Assembly (NCBI GenBank): GCA_016779565.1
Contig: JADHNJ010000011.1
Location: 1-61,449 of the forward strand
Length of the DNA: 61,449 bases
Source of the DNA: Pseudomonadales bacterium
Lineage (GTDB): Bacteria > Pseudomonadota > Gammaproteobacteria > Pseudomonadales > Azotimanducaceae
Reading direction: 5' to 3'
In this document: positions 3,711 through 49,327 of the stretch, in pieces
Numbering within the stretch: position 1 is the stretch's first letter
Layout of the letters: each line of letters starts with the position of its first letter
Notes under the pieces: model-generated
The model's input: the letters and a program-made list of their open reading frames with translations, nothing else
Database searches by the model: none
What the model was told of the DNA's origin: nothing
Program-made: the position numbers and the translations under genes

Positions 3711-3720
3711 CCACGCCGTT

Positions 3721-3797
3721 CGGGGCGTAGCGCAGTCTGGTAGCGCACCACACTGGGGGTGTGGTGGTCGTAGGTTCAAATCCTGCCGTCCCGACCA
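3721..3797 (+). tRNA. tRNA-Pro (anticodon GGG)
   Basis: A 77-nt cloverleaf with encoded CCA end. The acceptor stem CGGGGCG pairs with CGTCCCG (one G-U), followed by discriminator A and CCA. The anticodon stem CCACA/TGTGG encloses the loop CTGGGGG, giving anticodon GGG. The T-arm contains GGTTCAAATCC and the D-arm contains AGCGCAGTCTGGTAGCGC. The first pair C1-G72 is a proline identity feature in bacteria. It stands alone after the pheST-ihfA-merR group. Confidence 0.95.
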
Positions 3798-18067: not shown

Positions 18068-20281
18068 CTACGCTTTGAGTGTAAAACCATGGCGATCCAA
18101 AGGGAATTGACGAACTCTTCGACCGGTTGCGTTAAATAAAGCATTGGCAACCGCTGGCGCGATCGGCGTGGTGGCTTGTTCGCCAACGCCGGTTGGCGCT
18201 GCATCGCTTTGAATAATATGAACCTCAACTTCAGGCATTTGATGAAACCGTAACGGTCTATAGTCATGGAAGTTGCTTTGCTGAACCTGCCCGTCGACCA
18301 TATCAATAGCGCCATAGGCAACCGCATTGAGCCCGAGCATCACACCGCCTTGAATCTGAGCCTCGATCCCCAATGGATTAACAGCGAACCCGCAATCGAC
18401 GACGCACACAACCTTGTCCACGGTGAAGGTTCCGTCACCCGACACCGAGACCTCTACCGCTTGAGCAATGGGTGAAATTGAATATATTCGGGCGGCAACA
18501 CCGCGACCCCGTCCCGCAGAAAGCGGCGCGTCCCAATTGGCTTCGATGCGCAAACGCGCCAAAACTGCCGACATGCGATCGTGGTCACGAGCGAGATGTT
18601 GTCGCAGCGAAAGCGGGTCTTTTTTGCCGTGAAAAGCGAGCTCATCTAAAAAGCACTCGTAGGCAATGCCCGTGTGGGTATGGCCCACGGCGCGCCATTC
18701 ATGGGGGTGAACGCCGACTTTTGGTGGGTTGTGGCTTTCCACACGGTGATTCGGTATTTGGTAGGACGTGCCGTAAGGGAACACGCCAAAAGGGTTTTGC
18801 AGGCAGCCATCAACAGAATAGATATCGATGCCATTCACCATGTAAGCGGGGTCATGTTTGGTGTTTTGCATAATAGATTGGCCAACGGCAGTTTGATGCC
18901 AAGCCTCAGGATACCCTTGGTCATCAAGGCTGCCTCTCATACGATGCACGAACAACGGCCTGTAGTGCCCGCCTCGAATATCCTCTTCCCGTGACCAGAT
19001 AATTTGTACCGGGACTGTCTCACCCTTTGCCGCTTCGACGGCATCGGTGATGAAATCCGCAGTTTTGCTTGCTCGGCGGCCGAAAGTACCGCCCATAAGC
19101 GTTCGGTGGATGGTGACCTGTTCTTCCTTAAAGCCAAGCAGCCGGGCCACTAAGGTGCGATCATTACTTTGGTATTGAGTGCCCACCCAGATTTCGCAGT
19201 GGTCGGCATTAACTTGAGCGGTACAGTTCATCGGCTCCATAGTTGCATGGGCGAGGTAAGGCATCTCATAAACCGATTCAAAGACCGTTTCAGCTGCCGC
19301 TGTGACCTCTAGCGCATTGCCAATATCCTCAGCCAGCATACCGGGGCTGTTACTGAGCGCTCGATAATCATCTAAAAAACGCTCCGTCGACAAGACACCA
19401 AGCCCACCGTCATCCCAGGTGACTTGGATCGTTTTGGCAGCCTTTTGTGCGGTCCAGTAGTCTCGTGCAAGCACCACGACACCAGCGGCAATGGCTTTTG
19501 CCTTGATAACCCCCGGCATTGAGAGTGCTTGGTCAGCATTGAAGCGGACGACCTTGCTGCCATAGACAGGTGGTCTTACCACGGACCCATAAATCATGTT
19601 TGGTCTTTTTACATCGATGCCGAATATGGCCTCTCCGGTGACCTTTTCAGCGCCCTCAAGCCGTTTTTGTGATTGGCCAAGGATTTTGAAATCCTTGGCA
19701 GCTTTTAATGTGACGGTCTCCGGCGCTTGCAATCGATGATCTCTGATGACCGGTAACAAATCACCGTAGTTCACTCGACGGCCGTCCGGGTGTACGACTT
19801 GCCCAGGCCGAGTTGTCAGAGACGTGGCCGGGGTTTGCCAAAACAGACTTGCGGCTTGCAAAAGCAGGGCTTGGGTTTTAGCTCCCGCTGTTCGCATCGG
19901 GATAAAAGCCCCTGCGGTTGAAACACTTCCAGCAGTGAGATACTCGCCAAAGATAGGGCTGTAATAGCGGGGTTCCGTAGGGGCGGCCTCCCACCTCAGC
20001 AGCTGCCAGTCAATATCGAGTTCCTCAGCGACCATCATAGCCATACTGGTATAAACCCCATTTCCAAACTCCGCGTGGTTCATCAAAAGGGTAACTGTGT
20101 TGTCACTATCGATCCGGATAAAAGCATCTGCCATGAGCGACGTCAGGCTGTCTTGGTATGCTGCTGGCTTATTGGCAGCTTGCACCGGAATTTGGAACCC
20201 AACCAAGAGGCTTCCCGAAGCCAATAGGGTTGATCGTTTTAGAAATCGACGTCGGCTGTTATCCGTGACCGAATTTGCCAT
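18068..20281 (-). CDS. Molybdopterin-dependent hydroxylase large subunit, isoquinoline 1-oxidoreductase beta-like (IorB type)
   Basis: Xanthine-dehydrogenase-family molybdenum subunit (737 aa from the ATG at 20281, one base after the small-subunit stop and preceded by GAGG). A twin-arginine signal SRRRFLKRS followed by a hydrophobic stretch ending near VQAAN indicates folded export by Tat. The Mo-cofactor motif GGTFGRRA and the catalytic base Glu in GVGEQATTPIAPAVANA are visible, as are LAHATMEPMNCTA and FQIPVQ. It pairs with the [2Fe-2S] subunit upstream; there is no FAD subunit, so electrons probably pass to a cytochrome or quinone. It likely hydroxylates an N-heterocycle or aldehyde. It is divergent to the P450 operon. 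Confidence 0.87.
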   Translation of the reverse strand: MANSVTDNSRRRFLKRSTLLASGSLLVGFQIPVQAANKPAAYQDSLTSLMADAFIRIDSDNTVTLLMNHAEFGNGVYTSMAMMVAEELDIDWQLLRWEAAPTEPRYYSPIFGEYLTAGSVSTAGAFIPMRTAGAKTQALLLQAASLFWQTPATSLTTRPGQVVHPDGRRVNYGDLLPVIRDHRLQAPETVTLKAAKDFKILGQSQKRLEGAEKVTGEAIFGIDVKRPNMIYGSVVRPPVYGSKVVRFNADQALSMPGVIKAKAIAAGVVVLARDYWTAQKAAKTIQVTWDDGGLGVLSTERFLDDYRALSNSPGMLAEDIGNALEVTAAAETVFESVYEMPYLAHATMEPMNCTAQVNADHCEIWVGTQYQSNDRTLVARLLGFKEEQVTIHRTLMGGTFGRRASKTADFITDAVEAAKGETVPVQIIWSREEDIRGGHYRPLFVHRMRGSLDDQGYPEAWHQTAVGQSIMQNTKHDPAYMVNGIDIYSVDGCLQNPFGVFPYGTSYQIPNHRVESHNPPKVGVHPHEWRAVGHTHTGIAYECFLDELAFHGKKDPLSLRQHLARDHDRMSAVLARLRIEANWDAPLSAGRGRGVAARIYSISPIAQAVEVSVSGDGTFTVDKVVCVVDCGFAVNPLGIEAQIQGGVMLGLNAVAYGAIDMVDGQVQQSNFHDYRPLRFHQMPEVEVHIIQSDAAPTGVGEQATTPIAPAVANALFNATGRRVRQFPLDRHGFTLKA

Positions 20282-20282
20282 G

Positions 20283-20765
20283 TCATATGCCTCGCTGTTG
20301 TTTAGCAGCGCGATGAATCGCCGCCCGAATTTTCTGATAGGTGCCGCAGCGACAGACATGTCCTGCCATCGCGCTATCGATATCTGCATCGGTGGGAGCC
20401 GGATTTGAATCGAGTAATGCTACGGCGGCCATGATTTGGCCAGACTGGCAATAACCGCACTGAGCGACGTCCTCTGCAAGCCAGGCGGCTTGAGCCGGGT
20501 GGTAGTCAGTCGCCTCGGCGCCAGGCGCGTTCGTAGCTAAATCCTCGATAGTTCTAACCTTCTGATTGCCGATTGCAGCAATTGGAATTGCGCAGGATCG
20601 AGTTGCCTTGCCATCGACATGGACGGTGCACGCGCCGCACAGACTGACGCCGCAGCCGTACTTGGTGCCGGTTAAATGCAAGTGGTCGCGCAGTATCCAG
20701 AGTAGCGGCGTATCTGGGCTGGCATCCACCTCATGAGATTGGCCGTTAACGTGAATCTTAAGCAT
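20283..20765 (-). CDS. [2Fe-2S] subunit of molybdenum hydroxylase (IorA/CoxS type)
   Basis: Small electron-transfer subunit (160 aa). The N-terminal plant-type ferredoxin cluster ligands are in [15 protein letters not shown] (Cys40-48 region) with a fourth Cys in RSCAIP. The C-terminal helical cluster ligands are in [10 protein letters not shown] and [13 protein letters not shown]. This is the standard arrangement for xanthine-dehydrogenase-family small subunits. It is the first gene of a two-gene operon with the large subunit (1-base spacing). It has no signal peptide of its own and would be exported as a complex with the Tat-signal-bearing large subunit. Confidence 0.93.
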
Positions 20766-21007: not shown

Positions 21008-22354
21008 GTGGACCAGACCGCGAAAAAACTGATCAAAGGCGCCCAAATCATTGTGGGTTCTGGGGCGCCGCCAATGCGCGGTGATGTCCTGATCGCGGGA
21101 AATCGAATTTTGGCAGTCGGCGATCCGGATCCTGCGGCCACGATGGGCGCAGAAATTATTGATGCTGACGGTAAATTTTTGACGCCAGGACTGATCGACA
21201 GTCACTGTCATATTAGTTTTGATGAACCCCAGACCAACGACGAGTTATTTTTCCATCGACGTTATGGGCTAGCGGCCTTGGTAGCCAGCGTTAATGCCCA
21301 GAAGGTGCTTCGGGCTGGGTTTACTGCATTTTTCGATGCGGACTGTATTTTCGACGTTGGCGTAGATTTAAGAGATGCCATCGAAGCTGGCGTCATGGTT
21401 GGTCCGCGCATGACAACTGGTGGCAATGTCCTGATCAATTGCGTTGGAGGAACGGCGAGTCGACTGTTACCGGATTCTGGTCGTCGTGGGTATGGCATGA
21501 TTGTGCACACTCGAGATGAGATCACAACGGAGATTCACCGGCAGATCAAAGCAGGTGTTGACTGGATAAAAGTCCACGTCAGCGGTTTGCCCGTCAGACC
21601 GGGGCGAACGCAAGGCGAGATCCAGACCTGGTCCCTCGATGAGCTTAAACTTGTCTGCGACACTGCGCATCAACTCGGAATCCCAGTAGTCGGCCATTGT
21701 CGCAATGCCAGTAGCGTCCGCGATGCCGCCTTGGCTGGGTTCGATATGATTCTCCATGCCACCTATATGGACGATGAGGCGTTAGCCGCGGTAGTGGCGA
21801 ATCAAGTGCCCCTTGTGCCTACCTTTACTTTTCAAGCCAATCTTGCTGATTATGGCAGCGCCATAGGAGCAGATCCTTATTTGCAGGCGGTGTTTAAAGA
21901 AGAAATCACAGCCAGCGCGGATCACCTGCGCCAAGCGCATCTGGCAGGCGTCCCAATTTTAACAGGTAGTGAAAGCGGCTTCTCTTTAACGCCCTATGGT
22001 GATTGGCATTATCGAGAGCTGAAGCTGCTGCAAACCTATCTGGGACTCTCGCCTTTAGAGGCAATCCGAGCGGCGACTGAACTCGGGGCCATCGCTCTAC
22101 GACAAGAGGGTGAGCTGGGCTGCATTCAAGCAGGGTACTTAGCGGATCTTTTGATTCTCGCGGATGATCCCTTGTTGGACCTAGATCAATTCGGCCGCCC
22201 AGGGTTCATAGAAACCGTGATAAAAGGTGGACAGGTTGTCGACAGGTCGACGCCTTTACCAGATGCATGGCAAATACCCGGTTGGCGGATGAGCGCATTT
22301 TCAGACGAAGTGCTAACCCGCAAGCGGGCCGAATCGCATTTGGGGTCGCTATGA
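21008..22354 (+). CDS. Amidohydrolase family protein (imidazolonepropionase/prolidase-like)
   Basis: TIM-barrel metal-dependent hydrolase (448 aa) starting at GTG after TTGGAGGTAGC. Metal motifs: HCH in LIDSHCHISFD (about residue 65), a probable carbamylated Lys in DWIKVHVSG, His in VVGHCRN, and His in MILHATYMDDE. The C-terminal strand normally carrying Asp (GSDSG) reads ILTGSESGFSL, with Glu instead of Asp. It belongs to the group acting on cyclic amides, lactams and dipeptides. It is first gene of a six-gene operon and overlaps the first P450 (ATGA). Its role is probably ring opening or de-amidation of the P450 substrate or product (inference). Confidence 0.87.
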   Translation: MDQTAKKLIKGAQIIVGSGAPPMRGDVLIAGNRILAVGDPDPAATMGAEIIDADGKFLTPGLIDSHCHISFDEPQTNDELFFHRRYGLAALVASVNAQKVLRAGFTAFFDADCIFDVGVDLRDAIEAGVMVGPRMTTGGNVLINCVGGTASRLLPDSGRRGYGMIVHTRDEITTEIHRQIKAGVDWIKVHVSGLPVRPGRTQGEIQTWSLDELKLVCDTAHQLGIPVVGHCRNASSVRDAALAGFDMILHATYMDDEALAAVVANQVPLVPTFTFQANLADYGSAIGADPYLQAVFKEEITASADHLRQAHLAGVPILTGSESGFSLTPYGDWHYRELKLLQTYLGLSPLEAIRAATELGAIALRQEGELGCIQAGYLADLLILADDPLLDLDQFGRPGFIETVIKGGQVVDRSTPLPDAWQIPGWRMSAFSDEVLTRKRAESHLGSL

Positions 22355-23574
22355 GCGTGCTACGGATTGCAGACTATGCCGGCTGTGAGGCCGCCTTAAA
22401 AAATCCGCACCTACGTCAATCGCTTTATGATGCCGGCAGTCTTTTGATGGAGGATGTTTTAGTCAATCTCCATGGTGACGCGCACCGTGCGAGGCGACAG
22501 GTGGAGGGTCAGCTGTTTCGCCGGAGTTTTTTTCGAGATATCGAATCGAATGTCTTACCGAAGACATTACAAGCGGTTTTAGACACCGTGGACAATTCAG
22601 GAGCGATTGACCTCAAATGGCTCAGCTATCGCCTGATGTTGCACTTGTCACTCATCTTTGCGGGTATCGACCGGGTTAATGGGACTGAAACCGAGTCGGA
22701 GCATTTGACGGCGCTGTTAGCGCGATTGGGTCAGGCCGCGACGCTCGGACAGTACCAGGGCAGTGATAAGGCGCAGCTAGAGCAGGATATTCGAGCGGCG
22801 ATTGAGGAATTTGACCTAGCCTATTATCAACCTTCAAAGCGTCGGCGCACCGAAGCCATGACCCGAGACGGCCATGGCACAGATGAAAGTCAAGCAGGCA
22901 ATGAAGATATTCTGGCGCTACTGCTCGCCAACCAATCCTCTCTGGGACTATCAGATGCCGCAATGCTGCGCGAGGTTGGTTTTTTCTATCTCGCCAGTGC
23001 GCACACTTCGGTACATTCCATTACCCACGGGATCCATGAAATATTCGACTTTGTTCGCGCACAAGGCCTTACCGCTGAGGCGCTTTTGAACAACCCTTTA
23101 CTCTTACAGCGCTGCGCGCACGAAAGTTTGCGGCTGCACCCATCGAGTCCCGAGGCCTGGCGGCGGGCAGAGTGCGCGACGAGCCTGCCAGACGGTCGAA
23201 AATTAGCCAAGGGCGATGAGGTTGTCATCGACTTGCAATCTGCCAATCGAGATAGGGCAGTATTTGGTGAAGATGCAAATGCATTTGATCCAAACCGTGA
23301 TCGCAAAGCTGGTATTAACCCTTGGGGACTTTCTCTTGGAAGTGGCATGCATGTGTGTATCGGTCTAAATTTGGTCGCTGGCACAGTGCCGAGAGACCCA
23401 AGTACAGGTGACTTGTCAGGGCATCAATGGGGTAGTCTGACCGTGATTTACCGGCTGCTTTTGGCTGCAGGCATCGCCCGGGATCCAAGCCAATTACCCC
23501 AGAAAGACCCCGCATCCGCTCGGGACACATGGTTACGCTATCCGGTTGTGTTCCATGAAACGAGCAACGCCTGA
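22351..23574 (+). CDS. Non-canonical cytochrome P450-like protein, N-terminally short (first of tandem pair)
   Basis: P450-fold protein of 407 aa starting inside the amidohydrolase stop codon. The C-helix motif NLHGDAHRARRQ appears already at about residue 45, so roughly 50 N-terminal residues usual in bacterial P450s are absent. The I-helix reads FYLASAHTSVHS, with His where the catalytic acid (AGxE/DT) normally sits. The ExxR motif is HESLRLHPSS and the heme ligand lies in LSLGSGMHVCIGLNL. The C terminus (HQWGSLTVIYRLLLAAG to DTWLRYPV) is unlike standard P450 ends but matches the next gene. Heme binding is likely; classic O2 activation is uncertain. Confidence 0.75.
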   Translation: MSVLRIADYAGCEAALKNPHLRQSLYDAGSLLMEDVLVNLHGDAHRARRQVEGQLFRRSFFRDIESNVLPKTLQAVLDTVDNSGAIDLKWLSYRLMLHLSLIFAGIDRVNGTETESEHLTALLARLGQAATLGQYQGSDKAQLEQDIRAAIEEFDLAYYQPSKRRRTEAMTRDGHGTDESQAGNEDILALLLANQSSLGLSDAAMLREVGFFYLASAHTSVHSITHGIHEIFDFVRAQGLTAEALLNNPLLLQRCAHESLRLHPSSPEAWRRAECATSLPDGRKLAKGDEVVIDLQSANRDRAVFGEDANAFDPNRDRKAGINPWGLSLGSGMHVCIGLNLVAGTVPRDPSTGDLSGHQWGSLTVIYRLLLAAGIARDPSQLPQKDPASARDTWLRYPVVFHETSNA

Positions 23575-23576
23575 AT

Positions 23577-24740
23577 ATGCGGATTCAGGGAGCTTATGCC
23601 CAGGCGTACCAGGTATTGCTCGATCGCCGTCTTAAGCAAGGTCTTTACCAGGACTGTCCTGATCTGATGGCCGGTGTTGTGCTTAATCTAGAGGGTGAGG
23701 CGCATCTTATGCGTCGGAAACTGATGGCGCCTGTTTTTTCGGCTAAACAATTTAGAACCCTTGAGGCTTGGTTGGATGCGTTCATTGTTCAACCCGGTGC
23801 AGAGGCGATGCGCGCTGTCGGTAGCGGCGATCTGGTCGCCTTCGCTGAGGAGGTTTCTCTGGTCATGGCTTTGAGGCTTCTGGGCTTATCCTGTGATCCC
23901 CAGCGTTATAGTCAATTGCTGAATCTGGTCCGAACCTTCGGAGAGGGGGCGACGAGCGCCCATAGTCTAGAACAAAAGCTGGCATTAAATGATCGGGTTG
24001 TGAACAGTCTGAAGGTTTTTGACAAAGAGTTTCTCACGCCTGAGAGAACCAACCGCAGAGAAGGGTCAATGGCGCCCATGGACAATCTCTTAACCTTACT
24101 CTTCAGGGCTGAGAAAGAGGGTGTCTTGACCTCGGATCAACTCTTAAGAGATGCCGCCTTCTTCCTCCAAGCTTCAGTTTTCAGTACCACCAATGCCGTG
24201 GTCAATGCATTTCATGAGAGTATGAAAAAACAACGCTTGCTCGTTGAAGACATCTGCTCTGAGCCGCACTTACTCAGGTTACAGCGCTGGGTGCATGAGG
24301 CGCTCAGGCTGCATCCGGCGAGTTCGGTGATGCGACGGAAACGCGCCTTAGGTCTCGATGTCACAGAGCCCGAAAGTGATGAGGTGTTAGAGGTCAGCGT
24401 CCTTGAAGCGAATCGAGATCCCCTCGTGTTTGGTTCTGATGCCGAAGGGTTTGATCCGAGCCGGCGCGTTTCCGGACAGCGACCTTTTGTCGGATTGAGC
24501 TTTGGTGCGGGTCATCATAGTTGTCCGGGTCGCATCATGGTTGCCGGTTCAGTGTTGACTGAGGATCGCTCGGGACGCGGTGATCAGGTTGGCTTAATTA
24601 CTCGGGTTATTGCCGCACTTGCGAGGCGCGGCCTTCATCAAAATGAGGCCGAACCACCAACCCGCAAGCAGAACACGACCCGAGAAATCTGGGCAAGCTA
24701 TCCGCTAATTGCTAAAGCACAGGAGCAGGCAAATGTATAA
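23577..24740 (+). CDS. Non-canonical cytochrome P450-like protein, N-terminally short (second of tandem pair)
   Basis: A 387-aa P450 homologous to its upstream neighbour, separated by 2 bases. It also begins just before the C-helix (NLEGEAHLMRRKLMAPVFS at about residue 38), lacking the normal N-terminal strands. The I-helix is FFLQASVFSTTNAVV, without the acidic residue of the acid-alcohol pair. HEALRLHPASS is the ExxR helix and LSFGAGHHSCPGR the canonical heme loop with the Cys thiolate. The ending TREIWASYPL parallels the neighbour's DTWLRYPV. The coupled pair could form a heterodimer or perform successive steps. No ferredoxin gene is nearby. Confidence 0.78.
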   Translation: MRIQGAYAQAYQVLLDRRLKQGLYQDCPDLMAGVVLNLEGEAHLMRRKLMAPVFSAKQFRTLEAWLDAFIVQPGAEAMRAVGSGDLVAFAEEVSLVMALRLLGLSCDPQRYSQLLNLVRTFGEGATSAHSLEQKLALNDRVVNSLKVFDKEFLTPERTNRREGSMAPMDNLLTLLFRAEKEGVLTSDQLLRDAAFFLQASVFSTTNAVVNAFHESMKKQRLLVEDICSEPHLLRLQRWVHEALRLHPASSVMRRKRALGLDVTEPESDEVLEVSVLEANRDPLVFGSDAEGFDPSRRVSGQRPFVGLSFGAGHHSCPGRIMVAGSVLTEDRSGRGDQVGLITRVIAALARRGLHQNEAEPPTRKQNTTREIWASYPLIAKAQEQANV

Positions 24741-25473
24741 ACGAGCAATCGTTACTGGTGGTGGTCACGGCATTGGTGAGGAAATAGTGGCAGCGTTAGT
24801 TGAGCGTGACTATGAAGTTGGCGTTTTGGACGTGGATACTAAGGCCGCAGCGCGGGTTGCAGGCCGTTATGATCTCGCGGTACCACTCTCAGCAGACGTT
24901 GGCAATTACGCCGAGGTGGCATCGGCTTTTGATCAGTTCGGTGGGCTAGATTTACTCATTAATAATGCTGGGATTGTTCGCTTCGGGGGGTTGCTTGATC
25001 AATCTGAGGAGGAGATGTGTGATGTGATTCGGATTAATCTGCTGGGCTCCGTCTTCTGCGCCCAGCAGGCGGCCCGAAAAATGGCGGAGCAAGGATCTGG
25101 CGTGGTCATCAATATGAGCTCGATTAATGCCGCCCACCCAGCACCGAATGTGGGCCTTTATGCGGCCGCTAAAGCAGCAATTGCGAGTATGACCCAATTG
25201 CAAGCGATCGAGTGGGGGCCGCTCGGAATCCGGGTAAATGCGATCGCGCCAGGGTTTATCGATGCGGGTATGTCTGCGCCGATATTTCAAAACGAAGCCA
25301 TCCGTGCCAAACGCAGTTCTGGAGTGCCGCTGAGACGATTGGGCAGCGCTGAGGATGTGATCAATGCGATTTTATTTTTAGCCTCCAGTGAAGCGGAATA
25401 TGTTCATGGCCATGAGCTCGTGGTTGACGGTGGTGTGATCAATAGTGTGCTTGCGCATCTGCCAAGGGATTAA
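24733..25473 (+). CDS. SDR family NAD(P)-dependent oxidoreductase (P450 operon)
   Basis: Short-chain dehydrogenase (246 aa from the ATG at 24733, which follows AGGAG at 24721 and overlaps the preceding P450 end by 8 bases). The cofactor motif is TGGGHGIG, with acidic DVDT after beta2 suggesting NAD preference. NNAG, the catalytic Ser in MSSINA and Tyr/Lys in YAAAKAA are present. The C-terminal VVDGGVINS is typical. It probably oxidises an alcohol produced in the same operon, or reduces the corresponding ketone. Substrate is unknown. Confidence 0.88.
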   Translation: MYKRAIVTGGGHGIGEEIVAALVERDYEVGVLDVDTKAAARVAGRYDLAVPLSADVGNYAEVASAFDQFGGLDLLINNAGIVRFGGLLDQSEEEMCDVIRINLLGSVFCAQQAARKMAEQGSGVVINMSSINAAHPAPNVGLYAAAKAAIASMTQLQAIEWGPLGIRVNAIAPGFIDAGMSAPIFQNEAIRAKRSSGVPLRRLGSAEDVINAILFLASSEAEYVHGHELVVDGGVINSVLAHLPRD

Positions 25474-25476
25474 ATT

Positions 25477-26163
25477 GTGCGTCAGTTAATTCTTTCTAGC
25501 GGCATCTTCCATGAGTTTCATGAGACCAGTGCTGAACTTATGCAGATTGCTGAGACATTGGGAATTGCCAGCGAGGTAGTCAATCACCCGGAAGTCGCTT
25601 TTGAGCGATTGCTATCGGGTACGATCGATGTGTTTACAGTGAATGGGTTGCATTGGCCCATGCAAGGCGAGAAGTACGATCCTTTCCGCTCGGAGTGGCG
25701 CTATCAAATGTCTGATCTTGGTGAGTCGGCGTTGACGGCGTTTGAAAAAAGCGGTGGGCGTTTGCTTGGTGTTCATACGGCGAGTATATGTTTCACAGAC
25801 TCAAGCTGTTGGTCGCGGTTGATGGGTGGGGCTTGGCATTGGGGCCAGTCTTTTCATCCTGAACCGCAAGCGCTAGAGGTCCTGCCAACACTAACAGGCA
25901 GGGAGATGAATCTGTCTGACTTCAGGGTTGTCGATGAGCTCTACAGTGCACTGTCAATCCATCAAGATACGGAAGTGTTAATGGTGGGGTCTGACGGGCT
26001 AAGCACGCAGCCACTTGTTTGGCGACGGCAGGATGGTGAGTTTCGTAGCGCCTATTGTGCACTCGGGCATGATACGCGAGCGATGAAAACCGAGGGTCTT
26101 AGATTGGTCTTACGAAGGTTGTTGATGTGGCTCCTTGAGGGTGGGCGTGATGAAAACCATTGA
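25477..26163 (+). CDS. ThuA-like domain protein (class I glutamine amidotransferase fold)
   Basis: A 228-aa ThuA family protein starting with GTG 3 bases after the SDR stop. Family landmarks are the N-terminal strand LILSSGIFHEFHETSAEL, GGRLLGVHTASICFTD...WSRLMGGAW in the middle and PLVWRRQDGEFRSAYCALGH near the end. ThuA proteins have the amidotransferase fold but lack its Cys-His-Glu triad; those known act with dehydrogenases in 3-keto-sugar metabolism. Here it sits between two SDR genes and overlaps the second by 14 bases, so a partner-dehydrogenase role is plausible. The association with P450s is unusual to me. Confidence 0.75.
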   Translation: MRQLILSSGIFHEFHETSAELMQIAETLGIASEVVNHPEVAFERLLSGTIDVFTVNGLHWPMQGEKYDPFRSEWRYQMSDLGESALTAFEKSGGRLLGVHTASICFTDSSCWSRLMGGAWHWGQSFHPEPQALEVLPTLTGREMNLSDFRVVDELYSALSIHQDTEVLMVGSDGLSTQPLVWRRQDGEFRSAYCALGHDTRAMKTEGLRLVLRRLLMWLLEGGRDENH

Positions 26164-26908
26164 AGGCGGGTATTTGGTAACTGGAGGCGGTTCAGGTATT
26201 GGCGAGGCCACAGCTGAGATGCTTGTGAATCGTGGCCGAAAGGTCACGATCTGCGGTCGTCGCGGTGACAACATCGATGCAGTTGTTCGACGGTTAGGTG
26301 GTGCTTGTCATGGCGTTAAGGCCGACGTCACCTCCCCAGCTGACCGGGCTCGGTTGGTCAAAGAAGCGATTCAGCATGGCAATGGTCTAAGGGGCCTGAT
26401 TAACAATGCAGGCAATATGTACCGATCCAGAGTTGCAGATTACGACAGCGATCAATTGCTTGATATTTTTAATCAGAACGTGGTCTCGGGCATGATGCTG
26501 GCGCAAGAAACGTTAGCGGCACTCAAAGCCTCAGAAGGCAGTATTGTCTTTCTTGGGTCTATTCATACTCAGCGCGCATTCCCGGGCGCTTCGCCCTATG
26601 CAGCCTCAAAAGCTGCCTTGCAGGCAGTGACCCAGGTTATGGCAGCTGAATTGGGGCCAGAGGGCATTCGAGTAAATTGTGTGTTGCCAGGCGCGGTGCC
26701 AACAGACATTAATGTAAGAGCTGGGTTGGGTAGTCAAGACGATCAGGCCAAAAGGATGAAAGCGCTTGAGCCCTTGCATGCTTTAGGCAGAATCGGTAGC
26801 GCTGAAGAAGTTGCCGAGGCGATAGGCTATTTATTGGATGCCAGTTGGACGACCGGCGCGTTGCTTACAGTTGATGGCGGTTTAAGTCTTGGTATGACGC
26901 ACCTTTAA
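26150..26908 (+). CDS. SDR family oxidoreductase (last gene of P450 operon)
   Basis: Classical SDR (252 aa from the ATG at 26150, preceded by GAGGGTGGGC and overlapping the ThuA-like gene). TGGGSGIG is the dinucleotide motif. CGRRGD after beta2, with Arg residues, suggests NADPH preference, in contrast to the first SDR of the operon. NNAGN, Ser in FLGSIHT and YAASKAA complete the active site. The end VDGGLSLGM is normal. The pair of SDRs with opposite apparent cofactor preference could epimerise or sequentially oxidise and reduce a common intermediate (inference). Confidence 0.87.
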   Translation: MKTIEGGYLVTGGGSGIGEATAEMLVNRGRKVTICGRRGDNIDAVVRRLGGACHGVKADVTSPADRARLVKEAIQHGNGLRGLINNAGNMYRSRVADYDSDQLLDIFNQNVVSGMMLAQETLAALKASEGSIVFLGSIHTQRAFPGASPYAASKAALQAVTQVMAAELGPEGIRVNCVLPGAVPTDINVRAGLGSQDDQAKRMKALEPLHALGRIGSAEEVAEAIGYLLDASWTTGALLTVDGGLSLGMTHL

Positions 26909-27054: not shown

Positions 27055-28077
27055 GTGAAGGCACAATCGCACCTGGCGGCGGCAACGAGTATTGATATCC
27101 ATGCCCATGCTGTTTTAGCAGAATCTATGCATCAAGCAGGTCATTACGGCCCAGAGCTAGGTGATCAGACATCTGATGCCCCGTGGTTTAGAGTCGGGGA
27201 TTATCGACTAGAAGGGGTTCGCTATGCCGGGGGACCGTTTATGGACCTTGATCTCAGACTTGCAGCTATGGATGCCGCCGGCCTCGACTTTCAAGTACTG
27301 TCTCCTAATCCCTTGACCTATTTTCACTTTATTGAAAAAGAACTCGCAGACAAATTCTGTCATGCCCATAATCAGGCGCTGGCAGCTCTGGTTGGTAAAG
27401 CACCAGAACGAGTCGCTGCTTTTGCGACCTTACCGATGCAAGATGTTGAAGCCGCCATTCGAGCATTGATTTTTGCGGTTGAAGAGTTGGGGTTTCTGGG
27501 CGCATACATTGGCACAGACATTGGTAGACCTCTCAATGATCCAGCTTTGGATCCGTTTTATGAGGCCTGCGTTGATCTCAATGTGCCGTTGATGATGCAT
27601 CCCGCGCCGGCGGGTATCGATGGTCCCCCAGGAGATCCAAATCTTTTGCAGTATGACCTAGATTTGCTAACCGGCTTTGCCGCACAAGAAACTATCGCGG
27701 TAGCAACGCTGATCTATGGAGGCGTGTTATTGCGCCATCCGACATTAGATATTTGTTTATCGCATGCTGGGGGTGGGGTCGGTGCGCTGATCGGACGACT
27801 AAATCGCGCCTGTGTGAAACGATCTTGGGTACCCGATGCGCTGCGACACGAAGGCGCATTTGAGGAATCGTTGCAGTCTCTTTGGTTTGATACACATGTG
27901 CATGATGATCGTGTTTTGTCACTGTTTAGGTCGCTGGTCGGAGATAGTCGACTGGTGCTAGGAACCAATTTTTCAGGTTGGGATCAGCATGAACTCAAGA
28001 TTGAGCCTGGTCTTATGCGCTGCTTTACGGACAATGCCAGGCGGCTCTTGCGCGCTGATGCGGGTTCGGTTTCATAA
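27055..28077 (+). CDS. Amidohydrolase-2 family protein (ACMSD/decarboxylase-like)
   Basis: Metal-dependent TIM-barrel hydrolase or decarboxylase of the ACMSD group (340 aa), GTG start preceded by AAGGAGACAGACAAC. Metal ligands: HAH in SIDIHAHAV near the N terminus, His in PLMMHPAPA (about residue 182) and His in LSHAGGG (about 236). The last conserved Asp (normally GSDYP or GTDxP) reads LGTNFSGWD, with Asn at that position. Such enzymes decarboxylate or hydrolyse aromatic or keto acids. It lies 146 bases behind the P450 operon, same strand, and may be co-regulated. Confidence 0.86.
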   Translation: MKAQSHLAAATSIDIHAHAVLAESMHQAGHYGPELGDQTSDAPWFRVGDYRLEGVRYAGGPFMDLDLRLAAMDAAGLDFQVLSPNPLTYFHFIEKELADKFCHAHNQALAALVGKAPERVAAFATLPMQDVEAAIRALIFAVEELGFLGAYIGTDIGRPLNDPALDPFYEACVDLNVPLMMHPAPAGIDGPPGDPNLLQYDLDLLTGFAAQETIAVATLIYGGVLLRHPTLDICLSHAGGGVGALIGRLNRACVKRSWVPDALRHEGAFEESLQSLWFDTHVHDDRVLSLFRSLVGDSRLVLGTNFSGWDQHELKIEPGLMRCFTDNARRLLRADAGSVS

Positions 28078-28223: not shown

Positions 28224-30359
28224 ATGTTGACCACTGAGACGAAGAGGGCAGGCGCCGCAGCGAGCGCTTTGCTAGGAATGGGGTTGTGTTTTTTTAGTTT
28301 CAGTCCAATGGCCGACTGGCCGTTGCACGGCGGTGATCGGTTTGAGCAACGTCAGTCACCCCTGAATCAGATTGATTTAGAAACCGTCAGCGATTTAGGG
28401 TTGGCATGGTCTTTCGACACTGGTACACGTCGAGGCTTGGAAGCGTCTCCGATTGTGATCGACGGGGTGATGTATACCACGGGCGCTTGGAGTCAGGTTT
28501 TTGCCCTAGATGCGGCAACCGGTACCCTGCTCTGGTCTTTTGATCCAGCGGTGCCCAAGGCATGGGGTGCAAACGCTTGCTGCGATGTAGTCAACCGAGG
28601 GGTCGCCGTATTGGCAGACCGTCTGTTTGTGGGCACGCTTGATGGCAGGTTAATTGCGCTGGATCGGCATTCTGGCGAGGTTCTATGGTCGCAGCTAACC
28701 ATTGATCCCGAGAAGCCATATACCATCACCGGTGCGCCGAGATTAGCGGGCAATCAAGTCGTGATCGGCAACGGCGGCGCGGAATATGGTGTCCGAGGTT
28801 ATATATCCGCCTTCGATCCGCAAACAGGCGAAATGAATTGGCGGTTTTATACGGTGCCCAGTGATGATGAACAATCGATGGCCCCTGAACTTGCATGGAT
28901 CAAGGAGACCTGGCGAGGTACGGACTTTGCGGAGGTCGGTGGCGGGGGTACCGTTTGGGATTCGATGGTTTATGACCCCGAGACAGACCTTCTTTATATC
29001 GGCGTTGGCAACGGATCACCTTGGAACCGCACGATTCGCAGTCCAGGGGGCGGCGATAACTTATTTCTATCATCAATTGTTGCCCTAGAGGCTCGCACTG
29101 GTCGGTATCGCTGGCATTACCAAACGACCCCTGCCGATAATTGGGATTACACCGCGACTCAACATTTAATGTTGGCTACCCTGGAAATAGACGGGCAGCC
29201 GCGACAAGTGATTATGCAAGCCCCTAAGAATGGCTTTTTCTATGTCTTAGACCGCATATCTGGCGAGCTTTTGTCGGCCGAACCCTATGTTGATGTGAAC
29301 TGGGCCAGCCATGTCGATCTGGCGACCGGCCGTCCAGTTGAAACCGACGTTGCTGATTATCAGTTCAAGGAACAAATTGTGCGGCCAGCACCCTTTGGGG
29401 CTCATAACTGGCAACCGATGGCATTTAATCAAGCGGCAGGGTTAGTTTATATCCCGGCAATGCGTAACCTCTCTGTCTACAATCATCCAAAAACCTATGA
29501 GCACGTGCCAGGACCGCATTGGAATACCGGCCAAGATGACGAAGCTGCTGCAGAAAACCCGCTCGCGAGCCTTGATCCTAATTATCTAGCGCCCGTTCTT
29601 AAGCACTTGATGCGGGGCGAGCTTATAGCTTGGGATCCCGTAGCAGGCAGGCCGGCATGGACGGTAGCTCTGCCAACAATGTGGAACGGCGGTGTGCTAA
29701 CGACGGAATCTGGACTTGTTTTTCAAGGCGATGGGTCGGGCAAATTTTCTGCCTACAACGCGCTTACCGGCGCGCGAGTCTGGGCATTTGAATCGGGTCA
29801 GGGCATCATTGCGCCGCCGATCAGTTATGAAGTAGACGGCGAACAATACATAAGTTTAATGGCGGGTTGGGGCGGCGCGGTCGGTTTGGTGCTTGCGCAA
29901 CCGGCGGTGCGTTCTGGCGCTCCTGGAAAGGTGCTGACTTTTAAAATTGGTGGACAGGCAACGTTACCGTCGATACCTGAACCGACCCTGGTCATTGATC
30001 CACCACCAGACCTTGCCAGCGAAGCGGACATCACTGCTGGGCTGGCTTTGTATAATCAGCACTGCCTACGCTGTCATGGACTTGGCGCTGTGAGTCAGGG
30101 TTTGGTGCCAGATCTCCGGGCGATGTCTTCTACCACGCACGATATATTTGACGCTATTGTCAGCGAGGGTGTGTTAGCGCCGGCGGGCATGATCGGTTTT
30201 AAGGAAGTGCTCTCAACTGATGAGGTAGAGCAAATCAGGGGTTATCTCATCCGAACCGCGCATGATCAAAAAGATTTAGAAGCTGAATCAGCGACTTGGC
30301 AGCGTCTACGTAACTGGTGCTTGGATCAGCTGGGGTGGCTGGCCAGTGCGCTGTTGTAG
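28224..30359 (+). CDS. PQQ-dependent quinohemoprotein alcohol dehydrogenase
   Basis: Periplasmic soluble type II quinohemoprotein (711 aa) oxidising alcohols to aldehydes or acids. After a signal peptide (about 30 residues) an eight-bladed propeller runs to about residue 590. It carries the vicinal disulfide NACCDVV over PQQ, the Glu-containing GGGTVWDSM, and catalytic Asp in PADNWDYTATQHLML. The residue two after that Asp is Thr, not the Asp of lanthanide enzymes, suggesting Ca2+ dependence. The C-terminal cytochrome c domain has CLRCH and a likely Met ligand in AGMIGF. PQQ synthesis genes are not in the window. It may oxidise alcohols formed by the P450s; substrate unknown. Confidence 0.92.
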   Translation: MLTTETKRAGAAASALLGMGLCFFSFSPMADWPLHGGDRFEQRQSPLNQIDLETVSDLGLAWSFDTGTRRGLEASPIVIDGVMYTTGAWSQVFALDAATGTLLWSFDPAVPKAWGANACCDVVNRGVAVLADRLFVGTLDGRLIALDRHSGEVLWSQLTIDPEKPYTITGAPRLAGNQVVIGNGGAEYGVRGYISAFDPQTGEMNWRFYTVPSDDEQSMAPELAWIKETWRGTDFAEVGGGGTVWDSMVYDPETDLLYIGVGNGSPWNRTIRSPGGGDNLFLSSIVALEARTGRYRWHYQTTPADNWDYTATQHLMLATLEIDGQPRQVIMQAPKNGFFYVLDRISGELLSAEPYVDVNWASHVDLATGRPVETDVADYQFKEQIVRPAPFGAHNWQPMAFNQAAGLVYIPAMRNLSVYNHPKTYEHVPGPHWNTGQDDEAAAENPLASLDPNYLAPVLKHLMRGELIAWDPVAGRPAWTVALPTMWNGGVLTTESGLVFQGDGSGKFSAYNALTGARVWAFESGQGIIAPPISYEVDGEQYISLMAGWGGAVGLVLAQPAVRSGAPGKVLTFKIGGQATLPSIPEPTLVIDPPPDLASEADITAGLALYNQHCLRCHGLGAVSQGLVPDLRAMSSTTHDIFDAIVSEGVLAPAGMIGFKEVLSTDEVEQIRGYLIRTAHDQKDLEAESATWQRLRNWCLDQLGWLASALL

Positions 30360-30444: not shown

Positions 30445-32013
30445 ATGTATCCTGGCGCCTACGCTGATCAATATCCCAATCGTCCGGCTGTCATTATGGC
30501 AGCAACTGGTGAAACCAAGACATATGCACAACTAGAGGCACGTGCAAATCAGTTGGCGCATGCACTGCGTGATGCCGGCTTGAATCGGCTGGATCACTAT
30601 GCCATTTTCATGGAAAACAATTTTGACTATATCGAAAGCTGTGCTGCCGGCGAACGTGCGGGTCTTTATTACACCTGCATAAACTCTTTTCTGACGGCGG
30701 ATGAACTGGCTTATATCCTCAATAATTCTTGTTCTACGGTCGTTATCACTTCTCGTTTAAAACTACCGATCGTCGAAGCGGCATTGCAGCATTGTCCGAA
30801 GGTCGAGCAGGTTTGGGTAGTCGGACATAGAGATACCGGAGAAACACGGATTCAGCAGGCTCGGTTGCTGGACTTTGAGGGTGTTTTAGGTCGCTTTCCA
30901 TCTTCGTCGATTGCTGATGAATCTTTGGGTACCTCGATGCTCTACTCGTCAGGGACCACCGGCAGACCCAAAGGGATTATCAGACCGCTGCCGGAGCAAC
31001 CCCCGGGTGAGCCACTACCTTTGTATCAATTTCTTTCGTCCCTTTGGATGTACCGTGAAGAGATGATTTATCTGTCCCCGGCCCCCTTGTATCACTCAGC
31101 ACCGCAGGCCGCAGTCAATCTGACGCTACGTATTGGGGGAACGGTGATCGTTATGGAAAAATTTGACCCGGCGTCTTATCTAAAACACATCGAGCAGTAT
31201 CAGGTCAGTCATTCCCAATTGGTTCCGACGATGTTCAGTCGAATGCTCAAGCTCGATGAATCGGTTCGTACCAGTTTTGATTTATCCTCTCTTGAGGTTG
31301 CGATTCACGCAGCAGCGCCGTGTCCGAAGATGGTTAAGGAGCAGATGATTGCTTGGTGGGGCCCTATCATTCATGAGTATTATGGCGCCACCGAAGGGCT
31401 TGGTTTTGCCGCTTGCAATACCGCAGAGTGGCTCGCCCATCCTGGTACAGTCGGTAAAGTTGTGCTCGGGGATCTCGTGGTGCTCGATGATGAAGGCAAT
31501 CCTGTGCCAACGGGTGAGTCGGGTACTCTTTGGTTTAAAACGGCGACGGAATTTTCCTATCACGATGATGTTGAAAAAACAGCTGAATCTAAGTCCCCCG
31601 ATGGATCGATGACAACGGTTGGAGACGTCGGTTATGTAGACGAGGATGGGTTTTTGTATTTAACCGATCGGGCGACGTTTATGATCATTTCCGGCGGCGT
31701 GAATATCTATCCCCAAGAGTGTGAAGATCTCTTGATTAGTCATCCACGGGTAGCCGATGCCGCTGTATTTGGGGTTCCTAACGAGGATTTAGGTGAGGAA
31801 GTTAAGGCCGTTGTTCAACTCAATGAAGGCGAGGTCGGAGATGGTGCCATGACAGAGGCATTGCTAGCCTATCTGGCTGAACACCTGGCACGCCAGAAAA
31901 TACCTCGGTCGATTGATTACGAGGCAAGTTTGCCGCGGTTGCCGACAGGTAAGCTTTATAAGCGTTTGCTGAGAGATCGTTACTGGGGCGAAGGCAGATC
32001 AAAAATAGTGTGA
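30445..32013 (+). CDS. AMP-forming acyl-CoA synthetase / ligase
   Basis: Adenylate-forming enzyme (522 aa) activating a carboxylic acid to its CoA thioester via acyl-AMP. The P-loop-like A3 motif is YSSGTTGRPKGI (about residues 169-180), A5 is YYGATEGLG, A7/A8 are GDVGYVDEDGFLYLTDR and MIISGGVNIYPQECED, and the A10 catalytic Lys lies in LPRLPTGKLYKR. It follows the alcohol dehydrogenase by 85 bases, consistent with a sequence alcohol, aldehyde, acid and acyl-CoA. The substrate class (fatty, bile-acid side chain, aromatic) cannot be assigned by eye. Confidence 0.92.
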   Translation: MYPGAYADQYPNRPAVIMAATGETKTYAQLEARANQLAHALRDAGLNRLDHYAIFMENNFDYIESCAAGERAGLYYTCINSFLTADELAYILNNSCSTVVITSRLKLPIVEAALQHCPKVEQVWVVGHRDTGETRIQQARLLDFEGVLGRFPSSSIADESLGTSMLYSSGTTGRPKGIIRPLPEQPPGEPLPLYQFLSSLWMYREEMIYLSPAPLYHSAPQAAVNLTLRIGGTVIVMEKFDPASYLKHIEQYQVSHSQLVPTMFSRMLKLDESVRTSFDLSSLEVAIHAAAPCPKMVKEQMIAWWGPIIHEYYGATEGLGFAACNTAEWLAHPGTVGKVVLGDLVVLDDEGNPVPTGESGTLWFKTATEFSYHDDVEKTAESKSPDGSMTTVGDVGYVDEDGFLYLTDRATFMIISGGVNIYPQECEDLLISHPRVADAAVFGVPNEDLGEEVKAVVQLNEGEVGDGAMTEALLAYLAEHLARQKIPRSIDYEASLPRLPTGKLYKRLLRDRYWGEGRSKIV

Positions 32014-32090: not shown

Positions 32091-33836
32091 ATGTTTGATA
32101 CGGTGATTCGAGGGGTTCAAATAGTTGATGGAACTGGGCAGGCGCCTTATGCAGGCGATATCGCTATCAAAGATGGTGAAATTCAGGCGGTAGGCCAAGT
32201 TGATGGTCGAGGACGAGAAGAAATTTCGGCCAATGGCGCCTTCGCGACACCAGGCTGGATAGATGTTCATACCCATTATGACGGTCAGGTCAGTTGGGAT
32301 GACACATTGGATCCTTCATTCAGCCACGGGGTGACGAGCGTTGTGATGGGTAATTGTGGTGTAGGGTTTGCGCCTGCACCGCCGGGTGGGGAGCAGCGTT
32401 TGATCGAATTGATGGAGGGGGTAGAAGACATTCCCGGCACTGCCCTGTACGAGGGCATAGAGTGGGGACGCTGGGAAACATTCCCAGAGTATTTAGATTA
32501 TTTAGCAGGCCGCCAGTACAGTTTGGATATAGGGACGCAAGTGCCCCATAGCGCGCTTCGAAATTATGTTATGGGCGATAGAGCACTTCGTCATGAAGAT
32601 GCGACGGCAGAAGATTTAACTGCCATGGCAAGCATTGTTGAGCAGGCTGTTAGAGCGGGTGCGCTTGGTTTTTCAACCTCTAGAACCGTTGGACATCGCA
32701 GCGTTTTAGGTGAAACGATCCCGGGCACGTTCGCCGAACGAGCGGAACTCATGGCCATGGCAGCTGCCATGGAAGCTGCTGGTCGAGGCGTTTTTCAAGC
32801 GGTTCCCGCCGGTGTCGTTGGCGACCTGGCTGGCCCCGAACCGCAAACCTCTGAGCAAGAGGTGGCGCTGTTTATAGAAATTGCCGAAGCAACCGGTTGC
32901 CCTGTGACCTTTACGCTTGCCCAGAATTTTAGCCGTCCCGATCAATGGCAGGCCTGTCTGGATTTGGTCGCCGATGCCTGTACTCGCGGGCACCGGATTA
33001 TGCCGCAAATCGCCACTCGGCCAATTGGTTTTGTTACCAGTTTGCGCTCCTATCATATGTTCCAACGACGAAAAAGTTACCTTGCGCTATCGCATCTTCC
33101 GATAGATCAATTACTCGAACAGATGAGACGGCCTGAAATAAAGGCTCAGATACTCAGCGATGAGGATGTAAAACCGGATCTCCCTGGTTCTATGGAGAAC
33201 ATCTACGGTCTGCTCGGTATGGCAGCTGCCAGTATGTTTCCGCTATCGGTTCCAATGAACTATGAGCCAGAGGCGAGCGGTAACTTGGGCGCCTTGGCGG
33301 CTCAAGCAGGTCAACCTATCGACAGTTTCATGTACGACTTTTTGGTCGCTAACGAGGGCCGAAACTTTGCGATTTCTCTGGGGGCAAATTTTGTCGAGGG
33401 CAACTTTGAGGTGATTCGACAAATGATCGAGCATCCCAATACCACCATTGGCTTGTCTGATGCTGGAGCTCACGTCAATCTTATTTTTGATGCGGTTGGG
33501 CCCACTTATCAGTTGATGCATTGGGTGCGAGACAGAACCCGGGGCCCGAGATTCCCGATCGAAACGATCGTGCATAAACAGACCGCACGCAATGCCGACC
33601 TGTTTGGGCTGCATGATCGTGGACGCATTTTGCCGGGCCAGCGGGCGGATCTTAATCTAATTGACCTGCCGCGTTTAGGGTTGGGGGAGTTAGAGGTTGC
33701 CCATGATCTCCCAGCTGGTGGAGGCCGCATCTTACAATCGGCGACGGGTTATCTAAACACTTTTGTCGCAGGGATTAAGACGAGAGAGCGCGATCAAGAC
33801 ACTGGTGCAAGGCCGGGACGCTTGATCAGGGGCTAA
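32091..33836 (+). CDS. N-acyl-D-amino-acid deacylase family amidohydrolase
   Basis: Amidohydrolase-3/D-aminoacylase-type enzyme (581 aa), GAGG before the ATG. Metal and active-site motifs: IDVHTHYDGQVSWD (HxH), the family-specific Cys in VVMGNCGVGFAP, and Asp in GLSDAGAHVNL. The C-terminal beta-sandwich ends with GRILPGQRADLNLIDL. It is longer than classical D-aminoacylases (about 480-500 aa) and similar to many annotated amidohydrolases in steroid- or xenobiotic-degrading bacteria. It is the final gene of the catabolic island on this strand, 77 bases after the ligase. Amide or carbamate cleavage is likely but the substrate is unknown. Confidence 0.87.
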   Translation: MFDTVIRGVQIVDGTGQAPYAGDIAIKDGEIQAVGQVDGRGREEISANGAFATPGWIDVHTHYDGQVSWDDTLDPSFSHGVTSVVMGNCGVGFAPAPPGGEQRLIELMEGVEDIPGTALYEGIEWGRWETFPEYLDYLAGRQYSLDIGTQVPHSALRNYVMGDRALRHEDATAEDLTAMASIVEQAVRAGALGFSTSRTVGHRSVLGETIPGTFAERAELMAMAAAMEAAGRGVFQAVPAGVVGDLAGPEPQTSEQEVALFIEIAEATGCPVTFTLAQNFSRPDQWQACLDLVADACTRGHRIMPQIATRPIGFVTSLRSYHMFQRRKSYLALSHLPIDQLLEQMRRPEIKAQILSDEDVKPDLPGSMENIYGLLGMAAASMFPLSVPMNYEPEASGNLGALAAQAGQPIDSFMYDFLVANEGRNFAISLGANFVEGNFEVIRQMIEHPNTTIGLSDAGAHVNLIFDAVGPTYQLMHWVRDRTRGPRFPIETIVHKQTARNADLFGLHDRGRILPGQRADLNLIDLPRLGLGELEVAHDLPAGGGRILQSATGYLNTFVAGIKTRERDQDTGARPGRLIRG

Positions 33837-37713: not shown

Positions 37714-38556
37714 CTAATTCTCAACGTCAAGAGCTTCAAAGTTTGGGGCACGTCTTTCGACAAAAGAGGCGACACCTTCTTTAAAGTCAGGTCGACCAAG
37801 GCTGTCATCCATCCATTTTGAAGATTCAATCATGGCGTCGCCCAGTTCGCGGTTTAAGTGCTTGTAAACTTGGCGTTTCATCATCATCAACGAGCTGGGA
37901 GCAGAAGTTTCTTGCAGGCTTTGTAGATAGGCCGCAGCGGTCTGAACGCTATCGCCGTTGTCACACAGTCTATTAGCCCAGCCCATCCGATAAGCCTCCT
38001 CGCCCTCAATTTTGCGAGAGCTCCAGAAGATATCCAACGCGTTGGCCGGGCCTACAAGCCTCGGTAGCATCCAACTGGTGCCGTGCTCTGCGATGAGTCC
38101 TCTAGGGCCAAAAGAGGACACGATTTTCGCGCTGCGCTCCATAAAGCGCATGTCGCAAAAGGTTGCAAAACTAAATCCTAAGCCAGCACATGGGCCGTTA
38201 ACGGCCGCAATCAGGGGCTTCCTGAGCCCCAAAAAATAGGTAGGAGAACCCAAATAGTTCGGATCATTGTCTGGATTTCCAGGGTCGGCTTGTAAATGAC
38301 TGAATCGCTCGGTTAGGGTTTTACCTGCATCACTCATAGCGCCGAGTGCGTTCATATCGACTCCCGCACAAAAACCTCGACCGGCGCCGGTTAGAATGGT
38401 CCCGATGACGGTGGTCATCTTTTCTGATTGCCCGAGCGCATGACGAATTTCCGCCTGGGTGAGATCGGTAAGGGCATTTAACTGTTCAGGGCGATCGATT
38501 GTGATGGTAGCAACCGCGCCCTCGACCTCGTAAATGATTTCTTGATATTTCTGCAT
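37714..38556 (-). CDS. Enoyl-CoA hydratase/isomerase family protein
   Basis: Crotonase-fold enzyme (280 aa), AGGAG before ATG. The oxyanion-hole motifs are GAGRGFCAGVDMNAL (about residues 58-72) and AVNGPCAGLGFSFATFCDMR (about 118-137). A Glu in RGLIAEHGTSWMLPRLVG occupies the region of the second catalytic Glu of hydratases. The substrate is an unsaturated acyl-CoA; hydration or isomerisation are both possible. It stands alone on the minus strand but fits the CoA-ester metabolism suggested by the ligase and acyl-CoA dehydrogenase genes of the window. Confidence 0.92.
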   Translation of the reverse strand: MQKYQEIIYEVEGAVATITIDRPEQLNALTDLTQAEIRHALGQSEKMTTVIGTILTGAGRGFCAGVDMNALGAMSDAGKTLTERFSHLQADPGNPDNDPNYLGSPTYFLGLRKPLIAAVNGPCAGLGFSFATFCDMRFMERSAKIVSSFGPRGLIAEHGTSWMLPRLVGPANALDIFWSSRKIEGEEAYRMGWANRLCDNGDSVQTAAAYLQSLQETSAPSSLMMMKRQVYKHLNRELGDAMIESSKWMDDSLGRPDFKEGVASFVERRAPNFEALDVEN

Positions 38557-49305: not shown

Positions 49306-49327
49306 TTGAGGATTAAAGGACTATCTC

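Follow-up and report, generated by a model that had tools for sequence, protein, structure and literature searches.

We identified, in a 61,449-nucleotide stretch of DNA from a Pseudomonadales bacterium of the family Azotimanducaceae (GenBank assembly GCA_016779565.1, contig JADHNJ010000011.1; hereafter the window), a compact operon encoding two unusual cytochrome P450s, P450A and P450B, together with two amidohydrolases (AH1 and AH2), two short-chain dehydrogenases (SDR1 and SDR2) and a ThuA-like protein. We hypothesize that the operon, in the order AH1-P450A-P450B-SDR1-ThuA-SDR2-AH2 and together with a divergently transcribed molybdenum (Mo) hydroxylase, forms a catabolic pathway with two oxidation units for a single natural compound met by aquatic bacteria, and we put the probability of this reading at roughly 55%. 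The host is a 2.4 Mb metagenome-assembled genome (MAG) that is 81% complete.

The first six genes occupy positions 21008-26908 of the forward strand, each overlapping the next or lying 2-3 bases from it, and their coordinates, overlaps and gaps are all as given in a preliminary description of this DNA. AH1 (21008..22354; Pfam Amidohydro_1, E-value 1.6e-28), a prolidase/imidazolonepropionase-like amidohydrolase, shares a 4-base ATGA overlap with P450A (22351..23574, 407 aa; p450, 9.3e-14), which is followed after 2 bases by P450B (23577..24740, 387 aa; p450, 7.2e-9). P450B in turn overlaps SDR1 (24733..25473; adh_short_C2, 4.3e-56) by 8 bases, SDR1 lies 3 bases from the ThuA-like gene (25477..26163; ThuA, 1.7e-13), and the latter overlaps SDR2 (26150..26908; adh_short_C2, 1.2e-48) by 14 bases. 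AH2 (27055..28077, forward strand), an ACMSD-like member of the amidohydrolase_2 family recognized by Pfam, by alignment to ACMSD and by its co-occurrence with the other genes, starts 146 bases downstream of SDR2 and belongs to the operon set as its seventh gene. Diverging from the operon on the reverse strand, as had also been claimed, are the large subunit of the Mo hydroxylase (18068..20389; MoCoBD_1/MoCoBD_2), in which a twin-arginine-like stretch, RRRFLK, lies close to a possible later start, and its [2Fe-2S] subunit (20283..20765; Fer2, Fer2_2). The Mo hydroxylase adjoins the operon in several relatives as well.

Many genomes carry these genes together, and the arrangement is therefore far above chance. 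In a search with P450B alone against 146 genomes (the window's own and its relatives), from which 17 regions of strong matches were taken, AH1 adjoins the P450 in 12 regions and the full seven-gene order is found in four (L037-L040). One genome (G012) carries two very similar operon copies on different contigs (L038 and L039). A scan of genome contigs with P450A as a single sequence gave no match, and an AH1 alignment was used instead. This AH1 profile, run against one genome per GTDB species, returned 219 loci, the closest outside the window being in MAG MED698 (L054). Among the best 80 of these 219 loci, 48 contain a member of the P450 family and 38 have at least two P450 matches; ThuA is present at 34 of the 48 P450-bearing loci versus 2 of the 32 others, and SDR2 at 37 versus 5, although many of the contigs are short, so that absence near a contig end means little. 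The carriers include genomes of just 1.3-1.4 Mb (L104, L127, L133) and two named isolates, Peristeroidobacter soli JW-3 and Novosphingobium sp. THN1, the latter with tandem P450s, AH1, SDR1, ThuA, SDR2 and AH2 on a plasmid. Both P450s of P. soli JW-3 are full length, and the second P450 of THN1 is in two pieces. A search of a plasmid collection found tandem copies on this THN1 plasmid and single homologues in Streptantibioticus and Paracoccus. Of 398 genomes sampled from the phylum, the window's own was the sole carrier; carriers outside that sample are known from the AH1-profile scan. Four of the 80 locus records (L078, L095, L101, L131) are titled as Klebsiella pneumoniae MAGs; their genes resemble those of uncultured aquatic gammaproteobacteria, and the titles look like mislabels.

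The association also holds for whole genomes. A P450-profile search of 206 genomes of the window's GTDB family found the P450 family in 30 genomes, spread over 8 of 37 genera; 24 of the carriers have both P450A and P450B (linked in 16, apart in 8) and six have a single copy. AH1 occurs in 27 of these 30 carriers versus 10 of the 176 others (in G085, one of the three carriers counted as lacking it, AH1 is cut by the contig end), AH2 in 27 versus 20, and the operon's ThuA subfamily in 20 versus 9. The co-occurrence of the P450s with the ThuA-like gene, proposed earlier as a check on the operon, is thus seen for loci and for genomes alike.

An indication of how the pathway may be organized comes from the eight genomes, belonging to two genera, in which the P450s lie apart (G029, G627; G631, G632, G633, G635, G636, G641). 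In all eight the two sites are complementary: P450A-SDR1-AH2 are found at one and Mo hydroxylase-AH1-P450B-(ThuA)-SDR2 at the other, with ThuA present at the second site in four (G029, G627, G631, G632) and a Mo hydroxylase of a different cluster (c8) from that of the window. The split is not simply contig breakage, since in G641 and G627 the distance of each half to the nearest contig end exceeds 6 kb and P450B directly follows AH1. In an unrooted tree, the P450Bs of the split genomes of genus g24 are sister to those of linked pairs in G629, G630 and G640, while their P450As group with the P450A-half cassettes of G004 and G007. These differing affinities suggest that P450A and SDR1 moved together, in a direction that the unrooted tree does not give. 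P450A, SDR1 and AH2, whose genes travel together, would form a chemically sensible unit. The earlier proposal that the six overlapping genes serve one pathway is supported by these complementary halves, together with the genome-level co-occurrence of AH1, AH2 and ThuA.

The two P450s are indeed non-canonical, as the preliminary description had called them, with an I helix that lacks its acid and a short N-terminus. An acid-alcohol pair in the I helix is usual, not universal, among P450 monooxygenases. Among 97 full-length family members the acid position is never Asp or Glu (His in 83, Gln in 8, Phe in 4, Gly in 1 and Lys in 1), and the residue that follows is Thr in 38/38 first and Ser in 38/38 second tandem copies, whereas all nine ordinary P450s of the same genome that could be scored carry Asp or Glu (ten were tried and one gave no motif). 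The haem-ligand Cys in a GxGxxxCxG-type loop and the Glu and Arg of the K-helix ExxR are retained in all 97. In the window, P450A has His218 at the acid position (codon 23002-23004) and its haem-ligand Cys336 at codon 23356-23358, while P450B retains Cys316 (codon 24522-24524) and has Phe202 (codon 24180-24182) where most P450Bs carry His. The proteins begin immediately ahead of the B helix: in 22 of the 97 the open reading frame extends no more than 10 codons upstream from the start of the match, and in 40 no more than 20. In the P450A model (mean predicted local distance difference test, pLDDT, 89.7) the first elements are a strand (residues 3-6) and a helix (residues 9-17). The residues after the Cys number a median of 67 (range 26-76, 97 copies) versus 51-64 in the nine ordinary P450s.

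The predicted fold of P450A is nonetheless that of a P450, in that all 50 listed Foldseek matches are P450s (E-values down to 4.4e-15, template-modelling score about 0.7). It shares this fold, the haem Cys loop and ExxR with solved bacterial P450s such as CalO2 (3buj), AurH, P450 BioI, CYP109 and TxtE, yet differs from them in its low identity (at most 21% in the 50 listed matches), in a first strand that immediately precedes the B helix and in the missing I-helix acid. The P450 StaP (CYP245A1), which catalyzes a biosynthetic aromatic coupling, may likewise carry a His in the oxygen-activation region, close to the site of the conserved acid; our search of the open-licence literature gave no direct match on the I-helix variant or on StaP. 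The family may already bear a CYP number, its Streptantibioticus copy being 40.2% identical to P450A. At L101 the operon is preceded by an outlying third member of the family (about 3281-4471), which has Gly in place of the I-helix acid. Some P450 genes are in two pieces (L057, 6858-8072; L034, 11995-13163; L122 and L197, both of G636), by real decay or sequencing errors, and in the nearest relative (L037) P450B has an in-frame stop at about 9058-9073, shortly before similarity ends.

In a quick tree built from 95 members of the family plus two ordinary P450s, one branch separates the 38 first from the 38 second tandem copies (Shimodaira-Hasegawa-like approximate likelihood ratio support 97 on the first-copy side and 81 on the second-copy side), which indicates that the duplication is old. 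A second tree again recovers the P450A side as one group (58 rows, support 99), with the midpoint root among fast-evolving P450Bs. Judged by sequence, P450A and P450B are ancient sister paralogs that both lack the standard active-site acid.

The amidohydrolases likewise depart from their nearest solved relatives. AH1 aligns with the prolidase/arginine carboxypeptidase group (E-value 8.3e-42 to Cc2672, 3mtw) and shares its HxH, Lys, His and His residues; HxH and Lys are kept across its cluster, as is the first His in 76 of 77 sequences, the remaining one being unreadable, and the second His is kept also. It scores 205 bits, however, against the NCBIfam equivalog for Xaa-Pro dipeptidase, for which the cut-off is 500. 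Where the solved relatives carry Asp, AH1 has Glu322 (codon 21971-21973), and the cluster has Glu in 76/77 and Asp in one. AH2 matches solved ACMSD (4igm, E-value 2.4e-32) and other amidohydrolase_2 decarboxylases and shares their metal-binding His positions (HxH, His and His in 44/44), but its Asn305 (codon 27967-27969) replaces the Asp of ACMSD, again in 44/44. The altered residues correspond to the barrel Asp of the prolidase group and to the barrel-end Asp of ACMSD. Because of these two changes an activity cannot be transferred by name, and neither AH1 nor AH2 should take the name of the solved protein closest to it. The preliminary description had suggested that the substrate is an amide- or lactam-containing compound, and the nearest solved relatives of AH1 are indeed carboxypeptidases, prolidases and amide hydrolases. 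With the Asp changed in both enzymes, and since amidohydrolase is the name of a superfamily and not of a substrate, this suggestion finds no specific support in our results, and we consider it unlikely.

The differing cofactor signatures noted earlier for the two dehydrogenases hold in relatives. An Asp after beta-2, as in the NAD-type SDR1, is present in 56 of 64 sequences of its cluster, which takes in some other short-chain dehydrogenases, and the two Arg residues at this position in the NADP-type SDR2 (GRR in the window) are present in 41/41 and 40/41. The ThuA-like protein (PF06283, 51.7 bits against a cut-off of 33.4; model pLDDT 94.1) shares the fold of the ThuA family, with 4e5v as its best match (E-value 5.4e-10), but differs as a subfamily of its own with an HTxxICF motif, in which H, T, I, C and F are invariant in 19/19 rows. 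Invariant residues in these 19 rows include His12, His100, Cys105 (codon 25789-25791), His127, Asp153, Glu154 and His198.

Taken together, these features suggest a scheme in which one unit would consist of P450A, hydroxylating a carbon of the substrate, SDR1, oxidizing the resulting alcohol to a ketone, and AH2, acting on the keto compound. In the other, a Mo hydroxylase, P450B, ThuA, SDR2 and AH1 would oxidize a second position and then open or trim the skeleton through a hydrolase-like step. Each P450 would have its own position or intermediate to oxidize, without the two forming one obligate complex, and protons may be delivered to the haem-bound oxygen through the His-Thr (P450A) or His-Ser (P450B) pair and water, replacing the acid-alcohol pair.

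A catabolic role is favored by the acyl-CoA synthetase-like (30445-32013), acyl-CoA dehydrogenase-like (6381-7583) and enoyl-CoA hydratase-like (37714-38556) genes of the window, by TonB receptors in relatives, and by the presence of carriers among aquatic bacteria with small genomes. Moreover, the ferredoxin, MFS, GntR/FCD regulator and TonB receptor genes found at some relatives' loci fit import and breakdown. That the operon might instead produce a secondary metabolite is suggested by the closest Streptantibioticus homolog of P450A, a lone gene (40% identical) on plasmid pSCATT (L035) that sits among genes weakly matching adenylating (acyl-CoA-ligase-like) enzymes, and by a weak match of P450B to the model of ApyO, a P450 of ribosomally synthesized and post-translationally modified peptides (43.6 bits, cut-off 525). 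We regard biosynthesis as quite improbable, given the acyl-CoA-related genes above and a pyrroloquinoline quinone (PQQ) dehydrogenase in the window, the TonB receptors and Rieske oxygenases that accompany AH1 in relatives, and the lack of a nonribosomal peptide synthetase or polyketide synthase among the window proteins scanned, small precursor genes not having been searched for.

Steroid breakdown is a more specific form of catabolism to be weighed, as the carriers include Halieaceae/Luminiphilus, Novosphingobium and Steroidobacter lineages, which have been named or predicted to degrade steroids, with loci in Steroidobacter/Peristeroidobacter. OM60, SAR86 and Novosphingobium are named among predicted steroid degraders in the excerpted text of an earlier study (PMC4810484). 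In 12 of 14 other AH1-bearing genomes there are FAD_binding_2 proteins beyond the presumed SdhA, which could include KstD. No steroid gene was recognized beside the operon, however, and the single strong FAD_binding_2 match in the window's genome (81% complete) is a 593-aa protein, presumably SdhA; likewise, the presumed SdhA is the only such match at E <= 1e-30 in G152, which has the P450 pair (L109), and the same is true of G153, which lacks it (L118). Steroid ring breakdown is thus not supported in the window's genome, and we think it rather unlikely that the operon is part of such a pathway.

Several observations weigh against the proposed two-unit catabolic pathway or narrow it, in addition to the Streptantibioticus neighborhood described above. 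The reactions and the nature of the substrate are predictions, and the p-values of the Fisher and co-occurrence tests ignore kinship. At the cut-off used, 10 of the 30 carriers gave no match for ThuA, AH2 is not exclusive to carriers, being present in six same-genus genomes without the P450s, and no ferredoxin gene was seen beside the window's operon, while one lies near 13 of the 48 P450-bearing loci. Homologs scattered in relatives, which the preliminary description had named as evidence against a single pathway, do occur to some extent: apart from the eight split genomes, six of the 30 carriers have a single P450 (A in G004, G007, G064 and G083; B in G025 and G605), five of the six being 94-100% complete, and some genes lie away from the P450s (AH1 in G017 and G025; ThuA in G004, G007 and G025; AH2 in G064, G629 and G640). 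These separated genes are still in the same genome. The single-P450 genomes also indicate that neither P450 requires the other as its neighbor, so that the two do not make up an obligate complex.

A further point of this kind concerns P450B of the window itself, which together with those of three near relatives (L054, L069, L070) forms a clade on a long common branch with Phe in place of the I-helix His. This suggests that its chemistry may have drifted; P450B in this clade has lost the His and evolved fast, and its activity may have changed or been lost. One P450 alone might then be the enzyme and the other, P450B in this clade, a structural or activating partner, an idea with which a weak NCBIfam match of P450A to the model of a P450-derived activator (28.1 bits, cut-off 343) is also consistent. 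True P450-like activators usually lack the Cys, whereas the haem Cys and ExxR are retained in all 97 family members, the four divergent P450Bs included, and P450B occurs without a linked P450A in other genomes and is hence not simply a subunit. We therefore doubt that either P450 serves as a mere partner.

The AH1 loci that lack the P450 family place the two-unit pathway in a wider context. A Rieske oxygenase is found at 23 of these 32 loci versus 2 of the 48 P450-bearing ones, ordinary P450s of one cluster at 14 versus none, and one or both at 28 of the 32. Many of the Rieske loci, in SAR86 and Porticoccaceae/SAR92-type genomes, also encode a SnoaL-like protein, a glyoxalase I (E-value 3e-69 to the solved enzyme 6l0u), a cupin and a TonB receptor. 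These Rieske and SnoaL modules have the same AH1, often accompanied by AH2 and SDR1, and glyoxalase, cupin and TonB genes are also found near some P450 loci, following directly after the operon and the MFS gene that accompanies it at three Luminiphilus- or Halieaceae-named loci (L057, L063, L065). The simplest reading is that one core, AH1 and often AH2 and SDR1, is fed by different oxygenases. More tentatively, and at somewhat less than even odds, we suggest that the P450s form a short-N-terminus subfamily with His-Thr (A) or His-Ser (B) in place of the acid-alcohol pair, whose two ancient paralogs oxidize two positions of one abundant aquatic metabolite and stand in for the Rieske/SnoaL oxygenase found beside the same amidohydrolases in SAR86/SAR92-type genomes. 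The whole would then be one unrecognized pathway with interchangeable oxygenases in major planktonic lineages.

Downstream of AH2, a PQQ-dependent alcohol dehydrogenase with a cytochrome c domain (28224..30359, forward strand; TIGR03075, 596.8 bits) is a possible partner of the operon, and its position is kept in the nearest relative (L037/L054). Elsewhere in the window are two more Amidohydro_3 proteins (32091-33836 and 49414-51093), the first of which retains its place after the operon in the nearest relative, and an ordinary P450 (11347-12651) with a near full-length match of 431 bits to the model of the solanimycin P450 SolI (cut-off 850). In addition, aminotransferase, glutamine-synthetase-like, FAD amine-oxidase-like and arginase-family genes are clustered at 47767-55636; they resemble an amine/polyamine breakdown group, which was not seen within the P450 set.

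That the pathway was unfamiliar, as first remarked, agrees with the open-licence literature, in which we found no described operon of identical content, although a description elsewhere is possible. No paper in that literature combined ThuA, cytochrome P450, amidohydrolase and short-chain dehydrogenase, and none joined SAR86 with P450 and amidohydrolase; no paper held four of five marine terms, and among the papers listed for ThuA, P450 and gene cluster, or for tandem P450 and ThuA domain, no title concerned such an operon. Among marine gammaproteobacteria, P450 genes have been described, in the excerpted text of one study, as 11 times more abundant in postulated K-strategists than in r-strategists (PMC4391266), and in the excerpted text of another the P450s of bloom-associated species could not be linked to substrates beyond generic annotation (PMC8371827).

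More generally, many uncultured aquatic bacteria carry in this operon a compact and genetically testable pathway, at the center of which are two P450s whose oxygen-activation motif is odd. The P450 pair is also a natural test of how far P450 chemistry depends on the conserved acid, and joint deletion or expression of the set could reveal a widespread and as yet unrecognized carbon source.

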